12,037 nt of DNA from Actinomycetota bacterium (GTDB lineage Bacteria > Actinomycetota > Actinomycetes > Actinomycetales > Microbacteriaceae): assembly GCA_018895315.1 (NCBI GenBank), contig JAHIOK010000400.1, positions 1 to 12,037 of the forward strand, in the 5' to 3' direction. Below, piece after piece: positions 289 to 11,732 of the stretch (position 1 is the stretch's first letter; every line of letters starts with the position of its first letter). The notes under the pieces are model-generated. The model was not told the DNA's origin. It made no database searches and worked only from the letters and a program-made list of their open reading frames with translations. The position numbers and the translations under genes were made by a program.

Positions 289-717
289 TCACCAGGGGGA
301 CGGGCGCTCGGTGTCGCGGGTGCCGTCATCAGGAAGATGCGGCAGCACCTCACCGCCCGCGCGGATACACAGCCAGCGCAACTGCTCAGAGCTGTCGGGC
401 ACCGACCGCCACGTGCGCCACACGCCTTGCCCCACCCGCACGACGGTGCCGGGGCCGACGTCGACGACGTCGTCATCCAGCCCCATCTGCCCATGACCGG
501 TGAGGAAGACGTACAGCTCCTCGATCGCCGAGTGCGTGTGCCAATAGCCGGCCTCTTCGCCGGGCTCGAAGGCATTCGAAGTCATACCGATGTACTGCAT
601 CGCGAGGTCGTGATCGACCACCCGACGCCCATCACGGGAACGCGACGGGTGGAACCCGCCGAAATGATCCCGCCACTCGTCGAGGGCACCCATCTCCGAC
701 ACCTGGTAGTCGCTCAC
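289..717 (-). CDS. small single-domain cupin protein, function unknown
   Basis: This 142-residue protein has a recognisable cupin first motif: G53, then H60-x-H62 and E66/E67, followed by the L-x-G-x-G turn around 72-76. These are the usual metal ligands of the fold. The second motif (about 89-104, GPGTVVRVGQGVWRTW) has the expected glycines, but Trp/Arg occupy the place where the third histidine normally sits, so metal binding may be altered. The chosen GTG start at 717 is supported by a TAAAGT box ending six bases upstream, as expected for a leaderless message; no convincing Shine-Dalgarno sequence is present. The next in-frame ATG is at 693. It lies 64 bases beyond the apnL stop, on the same strand, so read-through from the operon is possible. 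Substrate is not inferable; sugar-acid binding or isomerisation is only a guess from context. Confidence 0.8.
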   Translation of the reverse strand: MSDYQVSEMGALDEWRDHFGGFHPSRSRDGRRVVDHDLAMQYIGMTSNAFEPGEEAGYWHTHSAIEELYVFLTGHGQMGLDDDVVDVGPGTVVRVGQGVWRTWRSVPDSSEQLRWLCIRAGGEVLPHLPDDGTRDTERPSPW

Positions 718-781: not shown

Positions 782-2584
782 TCAGATCTGCGGCATCCGG
801 CAACCGGCGAACGTCGAGGCCTCGAGATGCACCGACATCGATGCACGCGAAGACGTCGAGCCGGCAACGATCGTGATATCTCGTTCGCGAGTGTCGAGGT
901 TCGCGATCAGCACGGAGGTGCCCGCCGCGCCACGGCCGCCGATCGCCCACACGAGACCGTCGGGACTCGAACCCCACAGCAGCGTGGACCCGCTCAGCGT
1001 CGAGAGAGCGCGCAGAGCCGCCGCCGCTGGGCGCTCGCGGCCCTCGCCGTCGCGCAGGCCGCGAGGACCCCATTCCTCGAAGAACGCGATGCTCGCCACC
1101 CCCGGCACGGCGAACGCCGCCGCACTCGCGATCGTCCATGCACTCAGCTCCGAGGCATCCTGCCGCGCGTCGTCGGCATCACCGCCGAGTAGCTGCGGAC
1201 CATAGCCTTCGTCGAGAGACGCACCGGATGCCGCGGGTGCCGCTGTGGTCGCGACGTCATTGAACCGCGGGCGCAGCGACACCAGGCCGATATGCACCGG
1301 GAGTCCCCGTGCGAAGACCACACCCTGCCGAGCGGTCAGACGCTGCATCGCCACCGACTCCACGAGCTGCTCGGTGCCGCGACTGTGGAACAGCGGGGTG
1401 CTGCTGAAGGCAACGCCCTCCAGATCGTCGGGCAGCCGATGCCCCTCGCGGTTGAGCTCCGTGAAATGCGCCCGCGAACCGCCGATGACAGAAGCGGCAA
1501 CGCCGGCGTCGGCCAGAGCGGCGCGGAGAGCGTTCGTTGCCGCGACATCCGACATGTGCTGCGACGGACCGCTGCGCTGGAAGACAGCGACCCGAGCGAC
1601 AGAGAGGTGGCGCAGCTCGCGGGCCACGGCGGCGAGTGCGCGACGGCTCGGAGACTCCGGTGAGCTCAGCGACTCGGGAGCGCTCGCGAGCACCAACCGC
1701 ACATCGAGAGGCAGGCCGGTGGCGGCGGCGCGTGCGAGCGCGGCCGTCCAGTTGGGGCTCGCGAGATCGAGCTCGACGAAGCGTGCCTGACCGATCGATG
1801 CGTCGGTCCGGGAATCGAGCGGCGCAGGATCGGGCGCCGTCGCAGCGCCGAGCACGATCTCGGGGAACGCCCCACCCTCGAACAGCTCGATGCGATCTGC
1901 ACTGGACGCCTCCGCGATCGGCGACCCGACGTGGGCGCGCACCGCTACCCGCTGATGCACTCGCTCACCGGTGCCGACGCGATACGGAAAGGGCTGCGAA
2001 AGCGGGCGACTGTACGTCTTGAACGAGGCATCCGTCCAGTTGCGCTGATCTTCCATCTCGAACACTTCGCCTGCGAACCGCACGTCAAGATCGAGCCCGT
2101 TCGACATCCACGCCAGTTCGCGGATGTCGAATGCCGGCTGATGCGCGCTGATCGCCTCGGGGAACTCCACAGAAGACTGCGAACCATCGGCGTGCACCAC
2201 ATGGAGTGCAGAACCCGCCACAGACGGGGGATGCAGCACGACGAGTCCGATCCGATTGGCCCAGAATTCGTCCTCAGAGACGAGGCTCATTTCGACCGAG
2301 ATCTCATCGGCGGACACTTCGACCCGCACGTTCCCGCTCAGATCGGCGCCGTACTCACGGGTGCGAACCGTCAGCACGATCGCCGACACCGACTCCTCTA
2401 CGTCCTCGACGACGAGGTCGGCGGTGTTCCAGTCGCGATCACGCACGACGGCGCGGATGCTGCGCAATACCATCCGGCCGTCGAAGCGCAGATCGGCGAT
2501 CTCGTCATCGCGCAGCTCGAGCGTCCAGGAGCCACGAGACCATGCCCGCGACGGGGCATGCGACGAATTCCAGGCCGACGTCAT
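782..2584 (-). CDS. apnL: D-apionate lactonase (ApnL)
   Basis: This 600-residue protein probably hydrolyses D-apionolactone to D-apionate, the first committed acid of apiose catabolism, in the cytoplasm (no signal peptide). The layout fits the family: an N-terminal beta-rich region (about 15-215), a central alpha/beta barrel-like region (about 235-530) containing FNDVATTA (441-448) and an EEWGPRG segment (503-509), and a short C-terminal beta domain (about 535-600). The strongest marker is the 176-201 stretch, EMEDQRNWTDASFK followed by a Y-S-R-P-L-S and P-F-P-Y sequence, which I recognise as highly conserved in this family. The length is normal. The ATG at 2584 lies 48 bases after the SDR stop; only a weak GAG-like Shine-Dalgarno precedes it. 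It is the distal enzyme gene of the operon and sits beside apnO and oiaC, which act next. Catalytic residues are not assigned. Confidence 0.85.
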   Translation of the reverse strand: MTSAWNSSHAPSRAWSRGSWTLELRDDEIADLRFDGRMVLRSIRAVVRDRDWNTADLVVEDVEESVSAIVLTVRTREYGADLSGNVRVEVSADEISVEMSLVSEDEFWANRIGLVVLHPPSVAGSALHVVHADGSQSSVEFPEAISAHQPAFDIRELAWMSNGLDLDVRFAGEVFEMEDQRNWTDASFKTYSRPLSQPFPYRVGTGERVHQRVAVRAHVGSPIAEASSADRIELFEGGAFPEIVLGAATAPDPAPLDSRTDASIGQARFVELDLASPNWTAALARAAATGLPLDVRLVLASAPESLSSPESPSRRALAAVARELRHLSVARVAVFQRSGPSQHMSDVAATNALRAALADAGVAASVIGGSRAHFTELNREGHRLPDDLEGVAFSSTPLFHSRGTEQLVESVAMQRLTARQGVVFARGLPVHIGLVSLRPRFNDVATTAAPAASGASLDEGYGPQLLGGDADDARQDASELSAWTIASAAAFAVPGVASIAFFEEWGPRGLRDGEGRERPAAAALRALSTLSGSTLLWGSSPDGLVWAIGGRGAAGTSVLIANLDTRERDITIVAGSTSSRASMSVHLEASTFAGCRMPQI

Positions 2585-2632
2585 CTCAGCGCGCAGTCAT
2601 CTCAGTTCGTCCCCATCCCGTCGGTGGTCATG

Positions 2633-3391
2633 TCACAGCGCGGTCATGCCGCCGTCGACCGCGAACAGCGAGCCCGTCGCGAACGCGCCATCCTCGCTGG
2701 CGAGAAACACCATGATGCCTTCGACATCGCGCGGTGCACCCGCACGGCCGAGCGGTATGCGCCCGATGATCGCGGCCCGCGAAACCGGGTCGGTCGAGAT
2801 CGCACGGACCAACGTGGTCTCGGTGTAGGCCGGCACGACGGTGTTGACCCGAATATTCCGATCCGCGTATGCGGCGGCCACCGTGCGCGCCAGGCCGTGG
2901 ATACCGGCCTTCGATGCGCTATAGGCCGTGAAGTCCGCCCCCTCGCCGTTGAGCCCGGTGGGGCTGCCGGTGAGGATGATCGAGCCGCCGCCAGAGGTGA
3001 GCATGGACCGCACCGCGTGCTTGACGGTCAGGAAGGTGCCGGTCAGGTTGATGTCGATCGTGCGTCTCCACACCTCGAGATCGAGGTCTGCCGCCGGGGC
3101 ATCCTGCCCGAAGAGCTGCACTCCGGCGTTGGCGACCGCGACGTCCGGCGACCAGCCGTCTGCCTCGAGGGCGGCGAATGCCGAGGCCACCGATGCCTCG
3201 TCGGAGATGTCCATCACTGCTGAGCGAGCCTGGTCGGCACCGATTGCAGCGACCGCATCGTGTGCGGCGGCGGCATCCCGATCGGCGATGATGACGCGCG
3301 CGCCCTCGCGGGCGAACCGCTCGGCGACACCGCGACCGATTCCCGTACCCGCGCCTGTGACGAGAGCTGTCTTACCTGTGAGTGTTGCCAT
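2633..3391 (-). CDS. SDR-family NAD(P)-dependent dehydrogenase, candidate D-apiose dehydrogenase
   Basis: This 252-residue classical short-chain dehydrogenase has the nucleotide motif TGAGTGIG (12-19), an acidic residue D37 after the second strand (favouring NAD over NADP), the NAG motif (88-90), and the catalytic set N114, S143, Y157 and K161 (YSASK). The C-terminus ends in the usual D-G-G-M-T. An upstream in-frame extension lacks domain character, so the start is the ATG at 3391; GAGG overlapping the apnO stop lies six bases ahead of it. It is eight bases downstream of apnO and upstream of the lactonase gene. Known apionate routes need no further oxidation after ApnO, so the unassigned redox step is oxidation of D-apiose to the lactone. 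In described pathways that step is done by a Gfo/Idh/MocA enzyme, so this assignment is inference; another polyol or sugar is possible. Confidence 0.88.
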   Translation of the reverse strand: MATLTGKTALVTGAGTGIGRGVAERFAREGARVIIADRDAAAAHDAVAAIGADQARSAVMDISDEASVASAFAALEADGWSPDVAVANAGVQLFGQDAPAADLDLEVWRRTIDINLTGTFLTVKHAVRSMLTSGGGSIILTGSPTGLNGEGADFTAYSASKAGIHGLARTVAAAYADRNIRVNTVVPAYTETTLVRAISTDPVSRAAIIGRIPLGRAGAPRDVEGIMVFLASEDGAFATGSLFAVDGGMTAL

Positions 3392-3399
3392 GTCGGGCC

Positions 3400-4254
3400 T
3401 CAGCGTTCGATGTGATCGAGGTGGAGCATTCGCGCGAGGTTCTTGTCGAGCTCGTCGTCGCGGAAGATCTTCTTCCAGTCGTCTTTGATGATGCTCTCGC
3501 GACCGTAGTCCATCGCGATCAGGCATGCATCGCTGAACGGGTTGTCTCCGCGCAGCCCGTTCGCGAGCGCCACCTGGGTGTGGCCGTACAGGATCGACCG
3601 GGCCGCGGCCTCGGGAACGCCCATCGTGTGGATGGTCTCGTTCAATGCTTCGTTCAGGAGCGAACCGATCATGCAGGCGACCGTCTCGACCAGGGTCGGC
3701 TCGAGCTGGGCGAGCTGCTTGATGGTGACGAAATGAACATCGATGATCGGTGCGTAGATCGCGCGGACGGTGGCCTCGACGATCGCGGCCTTAGCGGGAT
3801 CGTCGGATTCGACGGCGGCGATCGCGTCCTGTGGGGCGGCGATGCCACCGAAGGTGTCGGCCCACTCCTCTGGCGTCTGACGTTGCAGGAAGATCGACGG
3901 GTGGCACGGGTGCGCGACGGCCCGGATGACGTCTTCGCGGTCGGTGAGCAGTCCGGCGTATGCGGCGGCGGGGTCGAGCGTGAGCGCGATGGCCCCCGAC
4001 TTCATCTGCGGCACGAGCTCGGCGGTGACGGCCTTCAGAGCGAGGTCGGGCACGGCATAGACGACGATGTCGGCATCGGCGACAGCAGCCAGGGCATCGG
4101 TCAGCGTTCGCCAGGCGTCGAGCGTGCGCTGCTGACCGGCGGGCGAATTCTCGACGTATGACACGCGGTGCGCCGTCTTGACGAGGTTGTTGGAGACGCG
4201 CATGCCCATCTTGCCGCCCGCTCCGATGACGGCGATCGTGTAGTTCTCGGTCAT
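3400..4254 (-). CDS. apnO: D-apionate oxidoisomerase (ApnO)
   Basis: This 284-residue protein probably converts D-apionate to 3-oxo-isoapionate with NAD+. An N-terminal Rossmann fold has GAGGKMG (11-17) and E35 at the end of the second strand, consistent with NAD. It is followed by LDPAAAYAG (93-101), AHPCHPSIF (114-122), and an all-helical C-terminal domain of the phosphogluconate-dehydrogenase-like type (about 165-284) containing the EPTLVE helix (185-190). The HPCHPS segment and C-terminal domain separate it from ordinary hydroxyisobutyrate dehydrogenases and match the ApnO family as I know it. The start at 4254 is well fixed: a strong GAGGAG lies six bases upstream, and the ATG overlaps the oiaC stop (ATGA). 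A longer in-frame reading to 4335 lies wholly in the end of oiaC and is rejected. Confidence 0.86.
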   Translation of the reverse strand: MTENYTIAVIGAGGKMGMRVSNNLVKTAHRVSYVENSPAGQQRTLDAWRTLTDALAAVADADIVVYAVPDLALKAVTAELVPQMKSGAIALTLDPAAAYAGLLTDREDVIRAVAHPCHPSIFLQRQTPEEWADTFGGIAAPQDAIAAVESDDPAKAAIVEATVRAIYAPIIDVHFVTIKQLAQLEPTLVETVACMIGSLLNEALNETIHTMGVPEAAARSILYGHTQVALANGLRGDNPFSDACLIAMDYGRESIIKDDWKKIFRDDELDKNLARMLHLDHIER

Positions 4255-5045
4255 GATGTGCTCCTCAAATAGTCGATGGTGGTGCGGGTCCATTCGCGCT
4301 CGACGCGGATGGTCGTTTCGGGGTCGCCCTGCCACGGCAGCCAGTGCTCGACGATCTCGTCGATGCCGCGTTCGCGCGGTCGTACTGTCTCGAGCAGGTG
4401 CGGATAATCGTGCAGGCCGGTGCCCATCGGGGCTCCGCTGTATGTGAAGCCGACCCAGCCGGGCTGCCGGGTGAAGGCGAAGTCCTTGACATGGACGTTC
4501 GCAGCGAGGTGCGCTGAGGCCTCGACCACGTCGCGGGGGCGCTCCAGTCGTGCGACCACATTGCCGGGGTCGAGGCAGATGCCCAGCTGCGCACTGCCGA
4601 ACGATTCCACGAGTGCAACGAGGTCGTCTGTCGCGACCTGCTCATACGTCTCGAGCGCGAGAGTGACGCCGGATGCCTCATATTCCGGCAGCGACATGCG
4701 CAGCCACGCTTCCGCCTCGGGGAGCGTCGGACGCGAGTTTGCCCCGTACAGCATCGACCGCACCAGGCTCGCGGAGAACACAGAGGCGAGCGCGAGGAAT
4801 CGTGCGAGCCGCTCGGGCTCGATCCCCTTCGTGCCGAGCTGGATCGTGAGGCCGAGATCGCGGGCGGCCTCAGCGGCGTCCTCCAGCTCGACGCCGCTCA
4901 TGATCTCGAGCGGCGCGTAGTCGCAGATCTGGAAGAGGTCGACGCCGAGCGCACGGGTCGCCTCGAACGCGCCGATGAGTGAGAGGGGCTCGGGCACCCG
5001 GTCGGAGTGCTGCCAGAAGAACGCGTACGTGCCGAGGCCGATCAT
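4251..5045 (-). CDS. oiaC: 3-oxo-isoapionate decarboxylase (OiaC), AP-endonuclease-2-type TIM barrel
   Basis: This 264-residue protein of the sugar phosphate isomerase/epimerase (xylose-isomerase-like TIM barrel) superfamily probably decarboxylates 3-oxo-isoapionate to L-erythrulose. The likely metal ligands are all visible in order at the ends of barrel strands: E132 (ALETYEQ), D159 (CLDPGN), H185 (VHVKD) and E233 (IVEHW). The N-terminus GLGTYAFFWQ (3-12) is also typical of the OiaC group as I remember it. The superfamily alone would not give the reaction; the call rests mainly on its place between lerI and apnO, with which it shares four-base ATGA overlaps at both ends. A GGTGGG sequence precedes the ATG by six bases. 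The alternative is a hydroxypyruvate-isomerase-like or epimerase activity. Confidence 0.78.
   Translation of the reverse strand: MIGLGTYAFFWQHSDRVPEPLSLIGAFEATRALGVDLFQICDYAPLEIMSGVELEDAAEAARDLGLTIQLGTKGIEPERLARFLALASVFSASLVRSMLYGANSRPTLPEAEAWLRMSLPEYEASGVTLALETYEQVATDDLVALVESFGSAQLGICLDPGNVVARLERPRDVVEASAHLAANVHVKDFAFTRQPGWVGFTYSGAPMGTGLHDYPHLLETVRPRERGIDEIVEHWLPWQGDPETTIRVEREWTRTTIDYLRSTS
4261..4266 (-). promoter_or_regulatory. strong ribosome binding site for apnO
   Basis: GAGGAG on the minus strand lies six bases before the apnO ATG, inside the last codons of oiaC. It is the best Shine-Dalgarno sequence in the operon and settles the apnO start at 4254. Confidence 0.7.
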
Positions 5046-5809
5046 GCCGTGCCCACCGGCGATGTCAGGGCAGATGCCTCGGCCAGGACGCCGGCGAGGG
5101 TGGCGGGGTCGTGCGCGAACCGGCCGAGGAACAGCCCGTCGACCGCGTCGCCGAGCTCGGTGAGCAGCCCGGGGCCGGCGGAGCCGCCGTAGATCACACG
5201 CGATCCGGGCCGCGTGGCGCGCATTTCGTCACGCAAGGCTCCGGCAACCGCGCGGATGTGCGCGACGGGCGCGGGTTCGGCGGCGCCGATCGCCCACACG
5301 GGTTCGTAGGCCACGACGATCGGGCCGGGCCCGGCAGCAGCGAGGTTGGCGTGGAGCTGCGCGATCGCGGTGGCCGCGGCATCCGCGGGGGAGAGCCGTT
5401 CGGATTCGCCGATGCAGAGCACGGGAGTCACATCATTGCGGAGGGCGGCGGCCACTTTCGCCGCGACCACATCGTCGGTCTCGCCGAAGAGACGGCGCCG
5501 CTCGGCGTGGCCGATCTCGGCGAGCGCGACCCCGACCTCGGAGAGCTCGGCGGCGCTGACCTCTCCGGTGAACGCGCCGCTATCCGCGGTTGCGAGATCC
5601 TGCGCGCCAACTCGCACCCCGGTGCCCGAGAGGGCGACCAGCGCGGCCGGGATCTGCAGATAGGTGGGGATCACGAAGAGTTCGACCTCGCCACGGGCCA
5701 CCGCGTCGTTCGCGCGCGCGACCTCGGCGACGCGCGCGAACCAATTCGTCGCCTGACGATGACCGAAGTACATCTTGAGGCTGACGCCGACCGTGACCCG
5801 GACGCCCAT
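5042..5809 (-). CDS. lerI: L-erythrulose-1-phosphate isomerase (LerI/EryH-type triosephosphate isomerase homologue)
   Basis: This 255-residue TIM-fold isomerase probably converts L-erythrulose 1-phosphate to D-erythrulose 4-phosphate. The triosephosphate isomerase catalytic triad is kept: K12 (SLKMYFG), H101 (IGHAERR) and E169 (AYEPVWAIG), with loop 6 and the phosphate-loop YGGSAG (207-212). Two positions differ from ordinary TpiA: the usual Asn two before the Lys is S10, and the Ser after the active His is A102. Both fit the erythrulose-phosphate branch rather than glycolysis. The ATG at 5809 shares one base with the derI stop (TGATG); an in-frame reading to 5950 runs through derI and has no fold character. 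The stop overlaps oiaC by four bases. Being in a catabolic operon with a DhaK-type kinase and an RpiB-type isomerase strengthens the call. Confidence 0.85.
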   Translation of the reverse strand: MGVRVTVGVSLKMYFGHRQATNWFARVAEVARANDAVARGEVELFVIPTYLQIPAALVALSGTGVRVGAQDLATADSGAFTGEVSAAELSEVGVALAEIGHAERRRLFGETDDVVAAKVAAALRNDVTPVLCIGESERLSPADAAATAIAQLHANLAAAGPGPIVVAYEPVWAIGAAEPAPVAHIRAVAGALRDEMRATRPGSRVIYGGSAGPGLLTELGDAVDGLFLGRFAHDPATLAGVLAEASALTSPVGTA

Positions 5810-6279
5810 CAGCAGGACCCCGTGGCCTCGTACTCGCCGATCACCGCGACCTTCTCGGCCGACGCCGACGTCGTGTCGAACCGATAGGTGAGCCACTCGC
5901 GCACCAGGCGGCGGGCGAGCTCGATGCCCACGACGCGCTGACCCATGCACAGCACCTGCGCGTCATTGGAGAGCACGGAACGCTCGACCGAGAACCCATC
6001 GTGCGCCGTGACGGCGCGGATGCCGGCAACTTTGTTCGCCGCGATCGCGACGCCCAGACCCGTGCCGCAGAATAGCAGCGCGCGGTCGGCGTCGCCGGAT
6101 GCGACGAGTTCGGCGGCGGTTATCGCGACCCGCGGGTAGGCGGTGTGCCCGTCGGCATCGACGCCGACATCGACCACTGAGGCGACACCGGGGTGGGCTT
6201 CGAGGTCCTTCTTCAGGACCTCCTTGTAGTCGAATCCGGCGTCATCACAGCCGATGACGAGGCGCAGGGGCTCAAGCAA
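5809..6279 (-). CDS. derI: D-erythrulose-4-phosphate isomerase (DerI/EryI-type RpiB homologue)
   Basis: This roughly 156-residue RpiB/LacAB-family isomerase probably makes D-erythrose 4-phosphate from D-erythrulose 4-phosphate, ending the pathway. Numbering from the chosen start, features are [10 protein letters not shown] (10-19), C71-G-T-G (active-site cysteine loop), GVAIAANK (76-83), H93-D94 and [12 protein letters not shown] (104-115). The usual C-D-H of ribose-phosphate isomerases is C-D-D here. The TTG at 6279 was chosen because AAAGGAA lies five bases before it and the resulting length matches the family; ATG codons at 6318 and 6306 would add residues encoded inside the end of lerK and have no such ribosome binding site. 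The start overlaps the lerK stop by eight bases, and the stop shares a base with the lerI start. Confidence 0.85.
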
Positions 6280-8002
6280 GTGCGTTCCTTTCGTTGTCGA
6301 AGACATCGGCCACCGCAACAGCGATCAACGCCAGGGAATGTGCTCCGGGATCGGGGGTGCCGAGGCTCTTGTGGGCGTGCGGACGCGCGCGTCCCATCCG
6401 GGGCAGCAGGTCGGCCGTGGATGCCGCGGCCGCCGTCGCGGCATGTGCCGCCGCGCGCCAGGCATCCGTCAGTCGGGCGCCGGCGTCGACGGCGCGGGTC
6501 AGCTCCGCGCTGAACGGAACGATCGCGTCGACCATCGTCTTGTCGCCGAGCTCGGCCTTGCCGTAGTCCATGATGCCGGTGGCTCCGGCCGCGACGCCGG
6601 CGGCGACATCCGCTGCGTCCGGTGCGCCTTCGTCGCCGAGCTTCGCGGCGATCGCGGTAAGGATGACGCCCCAGAGTGCTCCCGACGTGCCGCCGGCACG
6701 GTTCGACCATGCGTCGGCGGCGCGAGCAAGAGTGGTCGCCGCCCCTGCTCCCGCATCGGCGGCGGCGATTGCCGCGGACAGTGCCGCGTGCGAGCCGCGC
6801 TGCATCCCGATGCCGTGATCGCCATCCCCGGCGATCGCATCGATCCGGCCGAGTTCGTCGACGTGGGTATCGACGGTCGCGACAACGCTCTGCAGGGTGG
6901 CTACGACGGTGGCGGCAACGCCGCGCGAGACGTCATCGGAGGGCGGGATCGCTTCGGCCGTGATCTCAGCGAGCGGCGAGGCATCCGATCGCGCCGCCTG
7001 GATCACCGATCCCCGGCGGTACGCGGGGGTGTCGACCGGGGTGTCCCAGAGCTGGGCGAGTTCGTCGTCGAGCCAGAACAGCGTCAGCGAGGTGCCCGCC
7101 ATGTCGAAGCTCGTGCAGTATTCGCCGACGTGCGGGTCGACGATCTCGATTCCGGCGGCGCGCAGCAGCTCGGCGACGCGGCGGTAGACGACGAAGAGCT
7201 CTTCATATTTGAGCGACCCCAGACCGTTGAGGATCGGCACGACTCGGGCGCCCTCGATCGCGACAGGAGCTTCTTCGAGCAGGCTCGAGACGAGGAGCCC
7301 GGCCAGTTCATCGGCGGTCGGGATGTCGGTCTCGTCGATGCCCGGTTCACCGTGGATGCCGAGTCCCACGGCCATCCGGCCTTCGGGAACCGAAAACAGC
7401 GGCGCCTCGGCACCCGGCAGCGTGCACCCGGTGAACGCAACGCCGATCGAGCGCGTGCGCTCGTTGGCATGGCGCGCGACTCGGGTGACGCCGTCGAGGT
7501 CGTAGCCCGCCTCGGCCGCCGCGGCCGCGGTGCGGAACACCGCGAGGTCGCCCGCGATACCGCGCCGCTTGTGCTTCTCGGCGGCTGTCGCGCTGAAGAT
7601 GTCGTCGGTGACCGCCACGGTCTCGCACGCGATGCCCTCGGCGCGCAGCCGGTCTTGCGCGGCATCGAAGTTGAGTACGTCGCCGGCGTAGTTGCCGTAG
7701 CTGAGGAACACCCCGCCGCCCTGCGCGGCGCCCTTCGCGACCGCGAAGACCTGCTGAGTCGAGGGCGACGCGAAGAGATTACCCATGACCGCGCCGTGGG
7801 CGAGGCCTTGGCCGACGAGTCCGCCGAAGGCCGGGTAGTGCCCCGAACCGCCGCCGATCACGACGGCGACCTGGCCCGCGGGTGAAACCGTGCTGCGGAG
7901 CACCCCGCCCGTCACGCGCCGGACGTAGCGCTCGTTCGCGGCGACGAAGCCGTCGATCATCTCGTCGGCGAAGTCGGCGGGGTCGTTCCACAGCCTGGTC
8001 AT
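6272..8002 (-). CDS. lerK: L-erythrulose 1-kinase (LerK), DhaK-DhaL fusion of the ATP-dependent dihydroxyacetone kinase family
   Basis: This 576-residue kinase probably phosphorylates L-erythrulose at C1 using ATP. The N-terminal DhaK domain (about 1-335) has GGGSGHYP (50-57), GNYAGD (103-108), and H217 in GLGIHGEPG, the histidine that binds the ketone covalently in this family. The C-terminal DhaL nucleotide domain (about 360-576) has AGDGDHG (391-397), RAGGTSG (435-441), GDKTMVDAI (486-494) and a 538-554 segment with R-P-H-A-H-K-S and D-P-G-A. Full-length two-domain structure implies direct ATP use rather than PTS coupling. Sequence alone cannot exclude dihydroxyacetone as substrate; the adjacent derI and lerI genes make L-erythrulose the best call. 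The ATG at 8002 shares a base with the transporter stop (TGATG). Confidence 0.86.
6285..6291 (-). promoter_or_regulatory. ribosome binding site deciding the derI TTG start
   Basis: AAAGGAA on the minus strand, inside the end of lerK, lies five bases before TTG at 6279. No comparable site precedes the in-frame ATGs at 6306 and 6318. Confidence 0.55.
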
Positions 8003-9360
8003 CAGCGGACGCCCCCCGTGATGGTGGCGGGGGCATCCATGGTCGTCTTCTTGTCGTTGCGCGCGAGCAGCACCATGAGCACGGCCGAGATCAGCATGAA
8101 GACGCCGACGATGATCATCGGTACCTCATAGCCGCCGGTCCAGTCGTGCACGGCGCCCGTGATGTACGGCGCACTGAAGCCCGCCAGGTTGCCGATGGTG
8201 TTGATCAGCGCGACACCGGCCGCAGCGGCGACCCCGGTGAGGAACTTCGTCGGCAGTGTCCAGAAGTTGGGCAGTGCCGCGAAGATCGCCATCGCGGTGA
8301 TGGTGATGACGGCGATGGTCGCCGCAGGAGAACCGGCGAACAGGGCGAGCGGGATCGAGATCGCGCCGACCACTGCGGGGACGGCGATGTGCCAGGTCTT
8401 GAGACCGCGCTTGGAGGCATCCTTCGACCAGAAGTACATTGCGATCGCGGCGGGCAAATAGGGGATTGCGGTGATCAGGCCCTGCTGGAACACATCGAAC
8501 GTCGCGCCCGTCTCCGACTGGAAGCCCTTGATGATCGTCGGCAGGAAGAATGCCAACGCGTAGAGACCGTAGATGAAGCCGAAGTAGATGAAGGAGAGCA
8601 TCCAGACGCGACCGCTGCTAAAAGCGAAGCGCGCCGAGACGTGCTTCTCGCTCTTCTCGGTGGCCGCGCGCTCGGCGGTCAGGGCATCGGTCAGCCACAC
8701 CTGTTCGGAGGGGGAGAGCCACTTCGCGTCGGACGGCTTGTCTTTCAGGTAGAACCAGGCGATGACACCCACGATGATCGCCGGGATGGCGACGCCCAGG
8801 AACATGAAGCGCCAGCCTTCGAGGCCGAAGAAGACATCGTGCTGCTGGATGAGCGCGCCCGCGAGCGGGGCTCCGATCACGGTGGTGAGCGGCTGTGCCA
8901 GGTAGAAGAGCATCAAGACGCGACCGCGGTACTGCGCCGGAACCCACAGGCTCAGGAACAGGATCGCGCCGGGGAAGAAGCCGGCTTCTGCGACACCCAG
9001 CAGGAAGCGGAGCACGACGAGTTGCTCGAAGTTCTGCACCCATGTGAACAGGAGCGCGACGATGCCCCAGCTCACCATGATGCGCGAGAGCCAGCGGCGG
9101 GCGCCGAAGCGGTGCAGCGCGAGGTTGGACGGCACCTCGAGCAGGATGTAGCCGATGAAGAACACGCCCGACGCGAACCCGAACTGGGCGGCGCTCAGAG
9201 CGAGGTCGGTGTTCATGCCGTTGGGGGCGGCGAAACCGATCGCTGTGCGGTCGAGGAAGTTGATGAAGAACATCAACGCCACGAAGGGTACGAGGCGCAA
9301 TGACACTTTCCTGATGGCAGAGCGCGCGACATCCGGCGCGGGGGTCTGGGTGGTGGCCAC
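8002..9360 (-). CDS. MFS transporter, anion:cation symporter type, probable D-apionate importer
   Basis: This is a 452-residue integral membrane protein with about twelve hydrophobic helices and a charged central loop (about 210-255). The first helix ends in INFLDRTAIGFAA (33-45), the hallmark of the anion:cation symporter family that imports sugar acids such as galactonate, glucarate and rhamnonate. The C-terminal tail is charged and cytoplasmic. The GTG at 9360 is preferred: GGAG lies five bases upstream; a TTG at 9375 in frame would add five residues but has no good site. As first gene of the operon it is the expected uptake step; family preference points to an organic anion, D-apionate, rather than neutral apiose, which is inference. 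L-threonate-like acids are alternatives. Its stop overlaps lerK by one base. Confidence 0.87.
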   Translation of the reverse strand: MATTQTPAPDVARSAIRKVSLRLVPFVALMFFINFLDRTAIGFAAPNGMNTDLALSAAQFGFASGVFFIGYILLEVPSNLALHRFGARRWLSRIMVSWGIVALLFTWVQNFEQLVVLRFLLGVAEAGFFPGAILFLSLWVPAQYRGRVLMLFYLAQPLTTVIGAPLAGALIQQHDVFFGLEGWRFMFLGVAIPAIIVGVIAWFYLKDKPSDAKWLSPSEQVWLTDALTAERAATEKSEKHVSARFAFSSGRVWMLSFIYFGFIYGLYALAFFLPTIIKGFQSETGATFDVFQQGLITAIPYLPAAIAMYFWSKDASKRGLKTWHIAVPAVVGAISIPLALFAGSPAATIAVITITAMAIFAALPNFWTLPTKFLTGVAAAAGVALINTIGNLAGFSAPYITGAVHDWTGGYEVPMIIVGVFMLISAVLMVLLARNDKKTTMDAPATITGGVR

Positions 9361-9419: not shown

Positions 9420-9448
9420 AGTTTGGCAAACCGGTTGACCAATTGCAA
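9420..9448 (-). promoter_or_regulatory. possible promoter of the apionate operon
   Basis: On the minus strand, TTGCAA (9448-9443) and CAAACT (9425-9420) are separated by 17 bases, a plausible -35/-10 pair. The spacer is almost exactly the 20-bp palindrome, so a bound regulator would block it. Neither hexamer is close to consensus, so confidence is low. The implied 5' untranslated region is about 50 bases. Confidence 0.35.
9423..9442. promoter_or_regulatory. 20-bp palindromic operator, probably for the divergent GntR regulator
   Basis: TTGGCAAACC followed by GGTTGACCAA is an inverted repeat with 16 of 20 positions symmetric (two mismatched pairs) and a perfect AACCGGTT core at 9429-9436. It is the only such element noticed in the intergenic regions. 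It lies between the divergent transporter and regulator genes and over the candidate operon promoter, the usual position of a FadR-type autoregulatory operator. GntR-family binding is inferred from position and symmetry. Confidence 0.65.
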
Positions 9449-9477: not shown

Positions 9478-9483
9478 GTGGGC

Positions 9484-10221
9484 ATGCCCGCCTACCCCGG
9501 TGATCGCTCGGCCGAGATCACGGCCGCCCTGGGTGCGCTTCCTAGCGGCTCTCCGGTGTCGGAGGTGGCGCGGCGTCTGCTCGACCTGTTCACGGGTGGA
9601 TCGATCGCCCCCGGCACGCGGCTGCCACCCGAACGCCAGCTCGCCGCGACCCTCGAGGTCGGGCGATCCGCGGTGCGTGAAGCCCTCGCCGCCCTCGAAA
9701 TCCTCGGCATCGTCGATGTGCGCCCCGGTTCAGGCACTTATCTGCGTGGCACCGCCAGCTCACTCCTGCCGCAGACACTGCGGTGGGGGCTGTTGATCGG
9801 AGAGCGCAACACCGCCGAGCTCCTCGAGTTGCGGTCGGGGCTTGAGATCTACGTCGCGCGCCTGGCCGCGGCGCGCGTGGACGCCACGGCCCTCGCCACT
9901 CTCGGCGCACACGTCGCACGGATGCGCGCCGCGGCAGACGACCTCGGTGCGTTCGCCCGCGCCGACCTCGACTTCCACCACGCGCTCGCCGAAACCGCGG
10001 GAAACGCCGTGCTCATCGACACGCTCCACGTTGTCCGCTCACTGCTTCAGGTCTACGCCGACCGTGCCGTCCATGACCACGCCGAAGCCCGCATCGCGAT
10101 CGACGAGCACGACGCCGTCTACCAGGCGCTGGCCCGCGGTGACGAGGATGCTGCGGCCTCGGCGATGGCGATCCATATGGCCACCGCATCCCGTCGCCTC
10201 GCGACCGAGGCCGGGCGGTAG
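9484..10221 (+). CDS. FadR-family GntR transcriptional regulator of the apionate operon
   Basis: This 245-residue regulator has an N-terminal winged helix-turn-helix (about 25-90) with PGTRLPPERQLAATLEVGRS (43-62) and the R-P-G-S-G-T wing (80-85). A C-terminal helical FCD effector domain (about 95-240) follows. Likely metal ligands of that domain are D161 and H165 (DLDFH), H209 (DEHD) and H231 (AIHM), as in FadR members that sense carboxylic acids through a bound metal. It is divergent from the sugar operon, with the 20-bp palindrome between, so it is probably a repressor relieved by a pathway intermediate such as D-apionate or 3-oxo-isoapionate (inference). Numbering is from the ATG at 9484; a GTG at 9478 would add two residues. 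Confidence 0.88.
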   Translation: MPAYPGDRSAEITAALGALPSGSPVSEVARRLLDLFTGGSIAPGTRLPPERQLAATLEVGRSAVREALAALEILGIVDVRPGSGTYLRGTASSLLPQTLRWGLLIGERNTAELLELRSGLEIYVARLAAARVDATALATLGAHVARMRAAADDLGAFARADLDFHHALAETAGNAVLIDTLHVVRSLLQVYADRAVHDHAEARIAIDEHDAVYQALARGDEDAAASAMAIHMATASRRLATEAGR

Positions 10222-10475: not shown

Positions 10476-11732
10476 ATGCGTCAGAACTGGGCCGGAACCT
10501 ACGAGTACACGGCGCCGCGGATCGTCGCGGCCACTTCGATCGAAGAAGTGCGGCGTGCCGTGACCAGCGGTGGCCGAGTCCACGCGCTCGGCACACGTCA
10601 TTCCTTCACCGACCTGCCCGATACCGCCGGCACTCTGATCGATGTGTCAGGAATGGCCCCCGAGTTCGCGCTCGACGAGGCGGCGCGCACCGTCACGGTG
10701 AGCGCCGGCACCCGCTACGGAGTCCTCGCGATGTGGCTCGACGCCCGCGGCTGGGCCCTGCACAACCTCGGATCTCTGCCGCACATATCCGTCGGCGGGG
10801 CCATCGCGACCGCCACCCACGGTTCGGGTGATCGCAACGGGGTGCTCACGACCGCGGTGCGCGGCATCCGATACGTCGGCGGCGACGGCGACCTTCACTA
10901 CGTGCACCGCGGTGACCCCGACTTCGACGCGCTCGCGGTGGGACTCGGCGCATACGGCGTGACCGTCGCTGTGACCCTCGAGATCCAGCCCTCGTATCGC
11001 GCGCGGCAGGACATCTACCGCGGCCTCACCTGGGAGGCCCTGTTCGAGCAGTTCGACCAGGTCACCGGCGCCGGGTACAGCGTGTCGGTGTTCACGCAGT
11101 GGGATGCCGCCGACCTGGGTCACATCTGGGTGAAGACGCGCCTCGACACCGACGCCGATGTCGTGCCCGACGAACTCGCCGGCGCGCTCCGAGACCGGGT
11201 CGTGGGCCCCGCACTCACGCCGGTGCTGGAGAGCAACGTCACCGAGCAGGGCGGGGTCCCGGGGCCGTGGATGCTGCGGCTCCCGCATTTCCGACTCGAC
11301 GCGGAACCGTCCTACGGCGATGAGATCCAGACCGAGTATTTCGTGCGCCGCGAAGACGGACCCGCTGCGCTCCGGTCCATGCTCGCGCTCGCGCCGGCGA
11401 TCCGCCCGCACCTGCTGGTGAGCGAACTGCGCACGGCGGCCGCCGACGGGCTCTGGCTGAGCGGGGCATACCAGCGCGACATCCTCGCGATCCACTTCAC
11501 TTGGCGCAACGACCCGGTGGGTGTCGGATCGGTGCTGCCCGCGATCGAGGCGGCGCTCGCCCCGTTCGATGCGCGACCGCACTGGGGCAAGGTGCACGGG
11601 TTCGATGCGGGTCGGCGTGCGGCAGTGCATCCGCGGCTCGCCGACGCGCGCGCGGTCTTCGAGCGACTCGACCCGGAGGGCCTGTTCGTCAACGCGCATC
11701 TCGAACGCAACGGCGTGCGCGAGTCGCGCTGA
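10476..11732 (+). CDS. FAD-linked alditol (xylitol) oxidase-like protein
   Basis: This 418-residue flavoprotein is of the vanillyl-alcohol-oxidase fold, the same length as I recall for Streptomyces alditol oxidase AldO. The FAD domain comes first: HALGTRHSF (36-44) supplies the histidine (H42) expected to bind FAD covalently; VGGAIATATHGSG (106-118) is the pyrophosphate-binding stretch. The C-terminal cap and active site retain E317-L-R319 in a S-E-L-R-T context, LWLSGAY (326-332) and K372 (HWGKVHG), matching the Glu/Arg/Lys set of AldO. Such enzymes oxidise a terminal hydroxyl of polyols with O2, giving H2O2. It has its own apparent leaderless promoter and does not share the operon, but sits next to its regulator, so a role with apiitol, threitol or erythritol is conceivable. 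D-arabinono-lactone oxidase-type activity is a less likely alternative. Confidence 0.83.
   Translation: MRQNWAGTYEYTAPRIVAATSIEEVRRAVTSGGRVHALGTRHSFTDLPDTAGTLIDVSGMAPEFALDEAARTVTVSAGTRYGVLAMWLDARGWALHNLGSLPHISVGGAIATATHGSGDRNGVLTTAVRGIRYVGGDGDLHYVHRGDPDFDALAVGLGAYGVTVAVTLEIQPSYRARQDIYRGLTWEALFEQFDQVTGAGYSVSVFTQWDAADLGHIWVKTRLDTDADVVPDELAGALRDRVVGPALTPVLESNVTEQGGVPGPWMLRLPHFRLDAEPSYGDEIQTEYFVRREDGPAALRSMLALAPAIRPHLLVSELRTAAADGLWLSGAYQRDILAIHFTWRNDPVGVGSVLPAIEAALAPFDARPHWGKVHGFDAGRRAAVHPRLADARAVFERLDPEGLFVNAHLERNGVRESR

Follow-up and report, generated by a model that had tools for sequence, protein, structure and literature searches.

The stretch of DNA analyzed here (the window) comprises 12,037 nucleotides (G000:C359:1-12037) and carries eight tightly packed minus-strand genes at positions 782-9360, trailed by a ninth gene coding for a cupin protein. 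These genes probably form an operon for the complete catabolism of D-apiose, a sugar that occurs in plant pectin and glycosides, with a short-chain dehydrogenase/reductase (SDR) as the entry dehydrogenase. In the proposed pathway, in which every chemical step is assigned from protein families, the SDR would oxidize D-apiose to D-apionolactone with NAD+, and an ApnL-like lactonase would convert the lactone to D-apionate. ApnO would then generate 3-oxo-isoapionate by oxidation and rearrangement, an OiaC-like decarboxylase would yield L-erythrulose, a LerK-like kinase would phosphorylate it, and LerI- and DerI-like isomerases would deliver D-erythrose 4-phosphate to the pentose phosphate pathway. 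A divergently transcribed FCD-type GntR regulator, whose action is likewise deduced from its family, may bind a palindrome in the intervening promoter region and control both the operon and separate SDR-ApnL units in several relatives. The finding is real and mainly ordinary, the pathway being of a known type; its new part is the assignment of the entry step, together with a candidate regulon.

Co-occurrence of the SDR and ApnL genes

The host assembly (G000; 2.12 Mb, 461 contigs, estimated completeness 72.8%) is probably a metagenome-assembled genome. The closest protein relatives of the window are found in Microbacterium and other Microbacteriaceae; for example, the OiaC-like protein is 83% identical to that of Microbacterium aoyamense. 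Co-occurrence was computed across 219 Microbacteriaceae genomes with thresholds that we chose (SDR, 1e-85; ApnL, 1e-15; OiaC, 1e-20; glycosidase, 1e-20; Gfo/Idh/MocA, 1e-30; rhamnosidase, 1e-100). The resulting genome counts are lower bounds, as the best few candidates per genome were scored (at most 12 for the SDR and 9 for Gfo/Idh/MocA), and the genome lists for Fisher tests were typed by hand from search outputs. The SDR was detected in 38 genomes, ApnL in 42 and OiaC in 49, if G029 is taken as OiaC-positive despite a match of 32% identity. ApnL accompanies the SDR in all 38 of its genomes and OiaC does so in 37, G072 being the exception (Fisher p 2.9e-30, indicative only).

The two genes are also physically coupled. 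They lie within 300 bp of each other in 33 of the 38 genomes, on the same strand in 30 and on opposite strands in G031, G105 and G214. Ten of these 33 adjacent pairs count as separate from OiaC: they lie over 15 kb away, sit on a different contig or belong to a genome that lacks it. This class includes other-contig pairs of draft genomes (G052, G077, G130, G140, G192), possibly still linked. Among 79 related genome loci, 37 contain both SDR and ApnL sequences, 3 have ApnL alone, none has the SDR alone and 39 have neither; this comparison scores identity, not coverage, and its 37 loci include one with an SDR remnant (L083). Open reading frame calls in the related loci were mechanical, with some genes missed or lengthened. 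The tight order ApnO-SDR-ApnL is kept in 33 of the 37 loci. In L083 (genome G057), the SDR is cut to its last 52 residues, which lie between ApnO and ApnL.

In Rhizobium and Paraburkholderia, a Gfo/Idh/MocA gene directly precedes and overlaps ApnL; we take this to be the family of the characterised D-apiose dehydrogenase (ApsD). The corresponding slot in the window is held by the SDR, not by a Gfo/Idh/MocA protein such as ApsD. A Rhizobium Gfo/Idh/MocA query gave no match at 1e-30 in the host assembly (five of five candidates scored; assembly 73% complete) and matched 4 of the 219 genomes at this threshold, one of which has OiaC. Co-occurrence, the operator found at separate pairs (see below) and the failure to find a Gfo/Idh/MocA gene in the assembly together lead us to propose the SDR as a D-apiose 1-dehydrogenase. 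It may be a non-orthologous replacement of the Gfo/Idh/MocA apiose dehydrogenase, paired with its own ApnL clade.

Ser137, Tyr157, Lys161 and Asp37 of the SDR are kept in all 13 members of its clade that were aligned; of the 25 NCBIfam matches listed for it, not one passes its cut-off, and no apiose name occurs among its 120 listed relatives. Alignment of the ApnL-like protein with sequences that include proteobacterial ApnL-like proteins revealed 53 positions at which at least 21 of 22 sequences match the window residue, including E176, E178, D179, R181, N182, W183, K189, E376, N378 and H400. In its AlphaFold2 model (pLDDT 88.6), residues 228-600 align with glycosidase folds. The protein had no Pfam match, and its comparison with PDB sequences gave none by single sequence and none by profile at E values up to 1.

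A shared candidate operator

The palindrome TTGGCAAACCGGTTGACCAA lies in the divergent promoter region between the GntR gene and the operon. A GntR protein at least 45% identical to that of the window is present in 65 of the 79 loci, and 48 of these have the site (at most 5 mismatches) within 330 bp upstream of the GntR gene. The 17 loci without it comprise 15 from Streptomyces or Kitasatospora, in which GntR is 47-51% identical, plus L028 and L045. Elsewhere in the 1.29 Mb of loci, 19 further sites were found. A weight matrix was built from 46 sites; at a threshold of 10, which we chose, it matched shuffled sequence 4 times in 659,834 bases.

Of the 10 SDR-ApnL pairs that stand apart from OiaC, 7 have an operator match at most 160 bp ahead of the SDR (G072, G077, G134, G140, G168, G187 and G192). 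Among seven other separate starts in or near the cluster, G045, G040, G016 and G106 had a match and G029, G137 and G087 had none. Other gene starts in the fetched regions matched in 7 of 294 cases, of which five were core GntR or MFS starts; the remaining two are the two sides of one divergent promoter in G087, between LacI and solute-binding protein genes, which leads to glycosidase and SDR genes. Whole genomes were scanned as well for one form of the site, with 3 mismatches at most. Exactly one match each was found in 7 of 18 genomes. It fell in the core promoter region of G000, G106 and G179, preceded the SDR in G077, G140 and G192, and in G002 was about 10 kb away from OiaC. No match was present in the other 11, namely the SDR-ApnL carriers G021, G134, G168, G187, G072, G087 and G016 and the chosen negatives G215, G004, G007 and G025. 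A reversed control pattern gave one match overall, in G002.

Through the shared operator, and irrespective of linkage, many of the separate SDR-ApnL pairs, though not all, are thus tied to the apionate operon. In our estimation, the SDR and its distinct ApnL clade are likely to be a relocatable two-gene oxidation module, often carrying the operator of the apionate operon and widespread in Microbacteriaceae. The preliminary description, made from the window sequence, had placed the start of the operon at apionate. Since the SDR and ApnL behave like genes that are inherited together and, as judged from the operator, often co-regulated, we would revise this: the operon probably begins at D-apiose.

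Plant-sugar context

The same description suggested a plant- or litter-associated organism that feeds on apiose, and the neighborhoods of related loci support a plant-sugar context. Within about 10 kb, a glycosidase family occurs in 19 of them and an alpha-L-rhamnosidase family in 12. One representative per neighbor family, plus two more members of the glycosidase family, was scanned against Pfam; the glycosidase representative (from L026) matched DUF5060, DUF5605 and PF13204, the last being Pfam's apiosidase-like domain. A single solved relative was found for it at 1e-3, the putative glycoside hydrolase 4n0r. The family is present in 27 genomes, 22 of which have OiaC. On contig C197 of the host assembly, a copy with 81% identity lies beside a truncated rhamnosidase. 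In G021, whose copy matches all three domains, genes for a binding protein, the glycosidase, the SDR and ApnL follow one another in this order on one strand; the distance between glycosidase and SDR, measured between alignment ends, is about 44 bp there and about 26 bp in G087.

A family of about 566 amino acids is located between GntR and the core in L011, L015, L016, L019, L024 and L030, with a solute-binding neighbor in five of the six. Its representative had no Pfam match at 1e-6 and looks like a TIM-barrel glycosidase.

Weighing the assignment of the entry step

Several observations weigh against D-apiose as the starting substrate or weaken the evidence for it. ApnL occurs without the SDR in four genomes (G026, G056, G057 and G205), and 12 of the 49 OiaC genomes have no SDR, so the core can stand alone. 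This would suit an operon restricted to apionate, in which D-apionate or its lactone is imported and the SDR acts elsewhere, for example as a dehydrogenase of C4 polyols or of erythrulose that supplies LerK. The MFS transporter, which is nearest to galactonate and HpaX acid transporters, points the same way, as does the supply of D-erythrose 4-phosphate from tetritols in Mycolicibacterium smegmatis (PMC12780249). We consider such an operon unlikely, however, since the SDR tracks ApnL in all 38 genomes that have the SDR, beyond the C4 genes, 10 of the 33 adjacent pairs are apart from OiaC or in a genome that lacks it, and the SDR adjoins the glycosidase in G021 and G087.

Further points against concern the ApnL-like protein and the co-occurrence signal. 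The match to the ApnL model NF049900 falls in two stretches and is below the cut-off (Table 1), compared with 1063.2 bits for the Rhizobium sp. N621 ApnL reference, and the protein is 28-31% identical to three proteobacterial ApnL-like proteins. An unrelated alpha-L-rhamnosidase, used as a control, is likewise associated with OiaC (40 of 91 genomes, p 9.5e-11), so a shared lifestyle explains part of the SDR-OiaC signal; moreover, the genomes are related, and the p values therefore overstate the association. From these data, the SDR and its divergent ApnL partners could conceivably have a different sugar lactone as their target, with their link to OiaC reflecting a common diet of plant debris. 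The tight ApnO-SDR-ApnL order, the operator matches at most separate pairs and the presence of OiaC in 37 of 38 SDR genomes, versus 40 of 91 control genomes, make this improbable.

The operator scores at the seven separate pairs (14.5-22.6) do not reach 23.6, the 5th percentile among the 46 core sites, and G021, G052 and G130 have no match at the SDR-ApnL pair, though the core promoter there has one. ApnL of Paroceanicella has no Gfo/Idh/MocA neighbor in the stretch read, which leaves two clusters as the basis of the slot argument. The glycosidase copy of the host matches DUF5060 and DUF5605 but not PF13204 at 1e-5. Finally, the DerI-like protein scores 139.3 bits against the rhizobial DerI model NF051858, whose cut-off is 240. 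Of the product names given in the preliminary description, ApnL and DerI fall short of the models that bear them.

Operon layout and core enzymes

Table 1. Genes and sites of the window, with the evidence for their assignment
Feature	Position	Strand	Evidence
Cupin_2 protein at operon end	289-717	-	PF07883, 37 bits
ApnL-like protein, proposed D-apionolactone lactonase, divergent clade	782-2584	-	NF049900, 192.9 bits, under cut-off 750
SDR, proposed NAD-dependent D-apiose 1-dehydrogenase	2633-3391	-	Conserved SDR residues; genome co-occurrence with ApnL and OiaC
ApnO-like oxidoisomerase (PGDH_C protein)	3400-4257	-	PF16896, 186.7 bits; PF03446, 28.3 bits
OiaC-like xylose-isomerase-fold decarboxylase	4251-5045	-	PF01261, 57.1 bits (cut-off 31.1)
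LerI-like triose-phosphate-isomerase-family isomerase	5042-5803	-	PF00121, 175.5 bits
DerI-like RpiB-family isomerase	5809-6288	-	TIGR02133, 201.4 bits (cut-off 168.2)
LerK-like DhaK-DhaL fusion kinase	6272-8002	-	NF011049, 744.9 bits (cut-off 492); Dak1 and Dak2 domains
MFS transporter, closest to galactonate/HpaX transporters	8002-9360	-	PF07690, 172 bits; TIGR00893, 266.1 bits, under cut-off 395
Palindromic operator candidate in divergent promoter region	9423-9442	.	Inverted repeat
FCD-type GntR regulator, presumed operon regulator	9478-10221	+	PF00392 and PF07729
Alditol-oxidase-like FAD protein, optional accessory	10476-11732	+	PDB 8ot8, 336.9 bits; 2vfr (xylitol oxidase), 327.3 bits

All eight consecutive minus-strand genes of the families originally named are present. 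From the MFS gene downward they are separated by -1, -17, 5, -4, -7, 8 and 48 bp, with 64 bp between the ApnL-like and cupin genes. The window has five terminator-like sites, close to chance (shuffled sequences: mean 2.9, standard deviation 1.8), so the operon genes are likely to form a single transcript; a promoter scan of the window gave nothing useful. Families and gaps thus fit the earlier view of a gene set leading from D-apionate to D-erythrose 4-phosphate in what appears to be one transcription unit. The MFS gene, found at 60% identity or more in 43 of the 79 loci, presumably imports apionate or apiose.

The ApnO-like enzyme, which would convert D-apionate to 3-oxo-isoapionate, has NAD-binding and PGDH_C domains and is 55-56% identical to Pantoea and Erwinia genes located beside OiaC. 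It matches PDB 5t57 with 204.2 bits; no ApnO model is among the NCBIfam matches listed for it. The OiaC-like protein, predicted to convert 3-oxo-isoapionate to L-erythrulose, is 49% identical to Erwinia and Pantoea genes of the same cluster type, and 4 of its 120 listed relatives (78-80% identical) bear the JGI name 3-oxoisoapionate decarboxylase. Its metal-type residues E132, D159, H185 and E233 are kept in 17 of 17 aligned rows, a permissive and unspecific observation because two paralogues (30-34% identity) carry the same four residues. Its context is that of the OiaC branch, with an adjacent ApnO-like gene and no PF00016 or OiaK match in the 73% complete assembly.

The LerK-like kinase may phosphorylate L-erythrulose to L-erythrulose 1-phosphate, which the LerI-like isomerase would convert to D-erythrulose 4-phosphate; the best TpiA model for the latter protein gives 172.2 bits, under its cut-off of 293. 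The DerI-like protein scores above the cut-off of TIGR02133, the actinobacterial RpiB model (Table 1); it is a candidate for isomerizing D-erythrulose 4-phosphate to D-erythrose 4-phosphate. The host assembly has three RpiB-family genes, with 100, 71 and 30% identity to the window copy. Among 15 genomes tested, a distant RpiB (30-37% identical) is present in all, and close copies (at least 69%) were found only in the 11 that carry OiaC, as expected of a specialized copy beside a housekeeping RpiB. The second DerI-type gene of the host (71%; G000:C410:7283-7741) perhaps belongs to a tetritol or erythrulose pathway.

Distribution of the core and relation to known systems

Of the 79 loci, 72 could be assessed, having at least 4 kb upstream of OiaC. 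The order LerK-DerI-LerI-OiaC-ApnO on one strand within 6.5 kb is kept in 64 of them. Those that break it (8/72) include Propionivibrio L058 and L067 and Intestinirhabdus L076, in which no LerK, DerI or LerI exceeded the identity thresholds that we chose. Plasmids of Erwinia sp. E602 and Pantoea sp. At-9b contain a similar run of MFS, DhaKL, triose-phosphate isomerase (TIM), OiaC and ApnO genes with rpiB nearby. The conserved order and this run mark the core as an ordinary, widespread operon; the joined route that the preliminary description inferred here is not confined to this organism: it is conserved in actinobacteria and extends to Erwinia and Pantoea.

The best interpretation of the core is the OiaC branch of D-apionate catabolism, a known route that was reportedly published by Carter et al. 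in 2018. In this branch, ApnO shifts a hydroxymethyl group, which yields 3-oxo-isoapionate; decarboxylation by OiaC then produces L-erythrulose, from which LerK, LerI and DerI form D-erythrose 4-phosphate. The OiaC-branch clusters of Erwinia and Pantoea share the MFS-DhaKL-TIM-OiaC-ApnO run with the window. In the window, the operon itself includes the DerI-like gene, and the SDR and a divergent ApnL are added; its regulator is a divergent GntR, whereas the known clusters have a trailing sugar-binding regulator. The apiose clusters of Rhizobium and Paraburkholderia (OiaX or OiaK) have ApnO-like and ApnL-like genes in common with the window, and the Rhizobium cluster also has genes annotated as TIM, RpiB and DhaK/DhaL. 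What sets them apart is a kinase of the DUF1537 type, a RuBisCO-like protein and, ahead of ApnL, a Gfo/Idh/MocA gene; all three are missing from the window, and none was found in the assembly (73% complete).

LerK, LerI and DerI are presumably the enzyme names of the tetritol pathways of M. smegmatis. The erythritol and threitol pathways of this organism resemble the window in converting tetrulose phosphates to D-erythrose 4-phosphate, but, according to PMC12780249 (citing Huang et al. 2015), they are fed by tetritols, and the route of the window would be fed by decarboxylation of a C5 acid. Other articles describe a role of 3-oxo-isoapionate 4-phosphate in apiose catabolism (PMC6302742) and growth on D-apiose of a Rhodobacteraceae strain with an OiaK/OiaX-type cluster (PMC11747546). 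A parallel to the SDR is offered by the apiose cluster of E. coli ST131, which is without apsI and whose entry enzyme is hypothesized to be replaced by two oxidoreductases; it includes the aplK kinase and the transketolases aptA/aptB, and ApnO and OiaC are not mentioned in the portion available (PMC13001218).

In the open-access literature we found no description of the operon or of an SDR apiose dehydrogenase, which is weak evidence of absence as subscription papers are mostly outside this coverage. Within it, the phrases apiose dehydrogenase, 1-dehydrogenase and reductase were not found, apiose isomerase does occur, and nothing joined apiose with Microbacterium. The characterised bacterial apiose routes known to us come from other groups. 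If the proposed assignment is true, proteins annotated unspecifically as "SDR family oxidoreductase" in dozens of genomes of Microbacteriaceae gain a substrate, an apiose regulon gains an operator that can be tested, and the use of apiose becomes readable from the genomes of this family.

The RuBisCO-like branch

It had been suggested that the route in the window has no need of the kinase/RuBisCO-like branch. Window and host agree with this: a search for oiaK/oiaX-type homologues yielded no match to the OiaK model or to PF00016 (RuBisCO_large) in the assembly (73% complete). As a statement about the group it did not stand, as several relatives carry a kinase of the DUF1537 type and a RuBisCO-like protein close to these loci. 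PF00016 matches 18 of the 219 genomes, 10 of them with more than 195 bits, and 7 of these 10 have OiaC; the OiaK model matches 58 of the 219, none above its cut-off. Two RuBisCO-like proteins that were scanned scored 408.5 and 443.4 bits, both below the OiaX cut-off of 700.

In G137 (L111) and G205 (L110), a RuBisCO-like gene adjoins OiaC. The stretch also holds ApnL, ApnO and a kinase of the DUF1537 type, and it gave no match to LerK, LerI or DerI; predicted decarboxylases of two types are thus found in one cluster. In G179, a kinase and RuBisCO-like pair lies about 17 kb from OiaC, which itself sits in a complete operon. These arrangements suggest that both branches are combined in some relatives. 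A RuBisCO-like/kinase pair is also present about 14 kb from OiaC in L083 (G057).

Accessory genes

The cupin gene at the end of the operon had no tblastn match at 1e-8 among 83 related loci (L003-L085). Beyond the GntR gene lies the FAD protein; among solved structures, 8ot8 and 2vfr (xylitol oxidase) are closest to it in sequence. Its H42, S100, E317, R319, H340, T342 and K372 are identical to the aligned residues of 2vfr, which we take to be FAD-linking or substrate positions. A homologue of xylitol oxidase near the regulator, found at 60% identity or more in 11 of the 79 loci, could in principle oxidize D-apiose (or apiitol) with oxygen and leave the SDR a secondary role. This is very improbable: all 11 loci have SDR and ApnL, 26 more have SDR sequence without the oxidase (among them the L083 remnant), and the gene is off the operon's strand. 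In L102 (G106), an SMP-30 lactonase-type gene is located between GntR and MFS, and the FAD oxidase gene lies between the SDR and ApnL.

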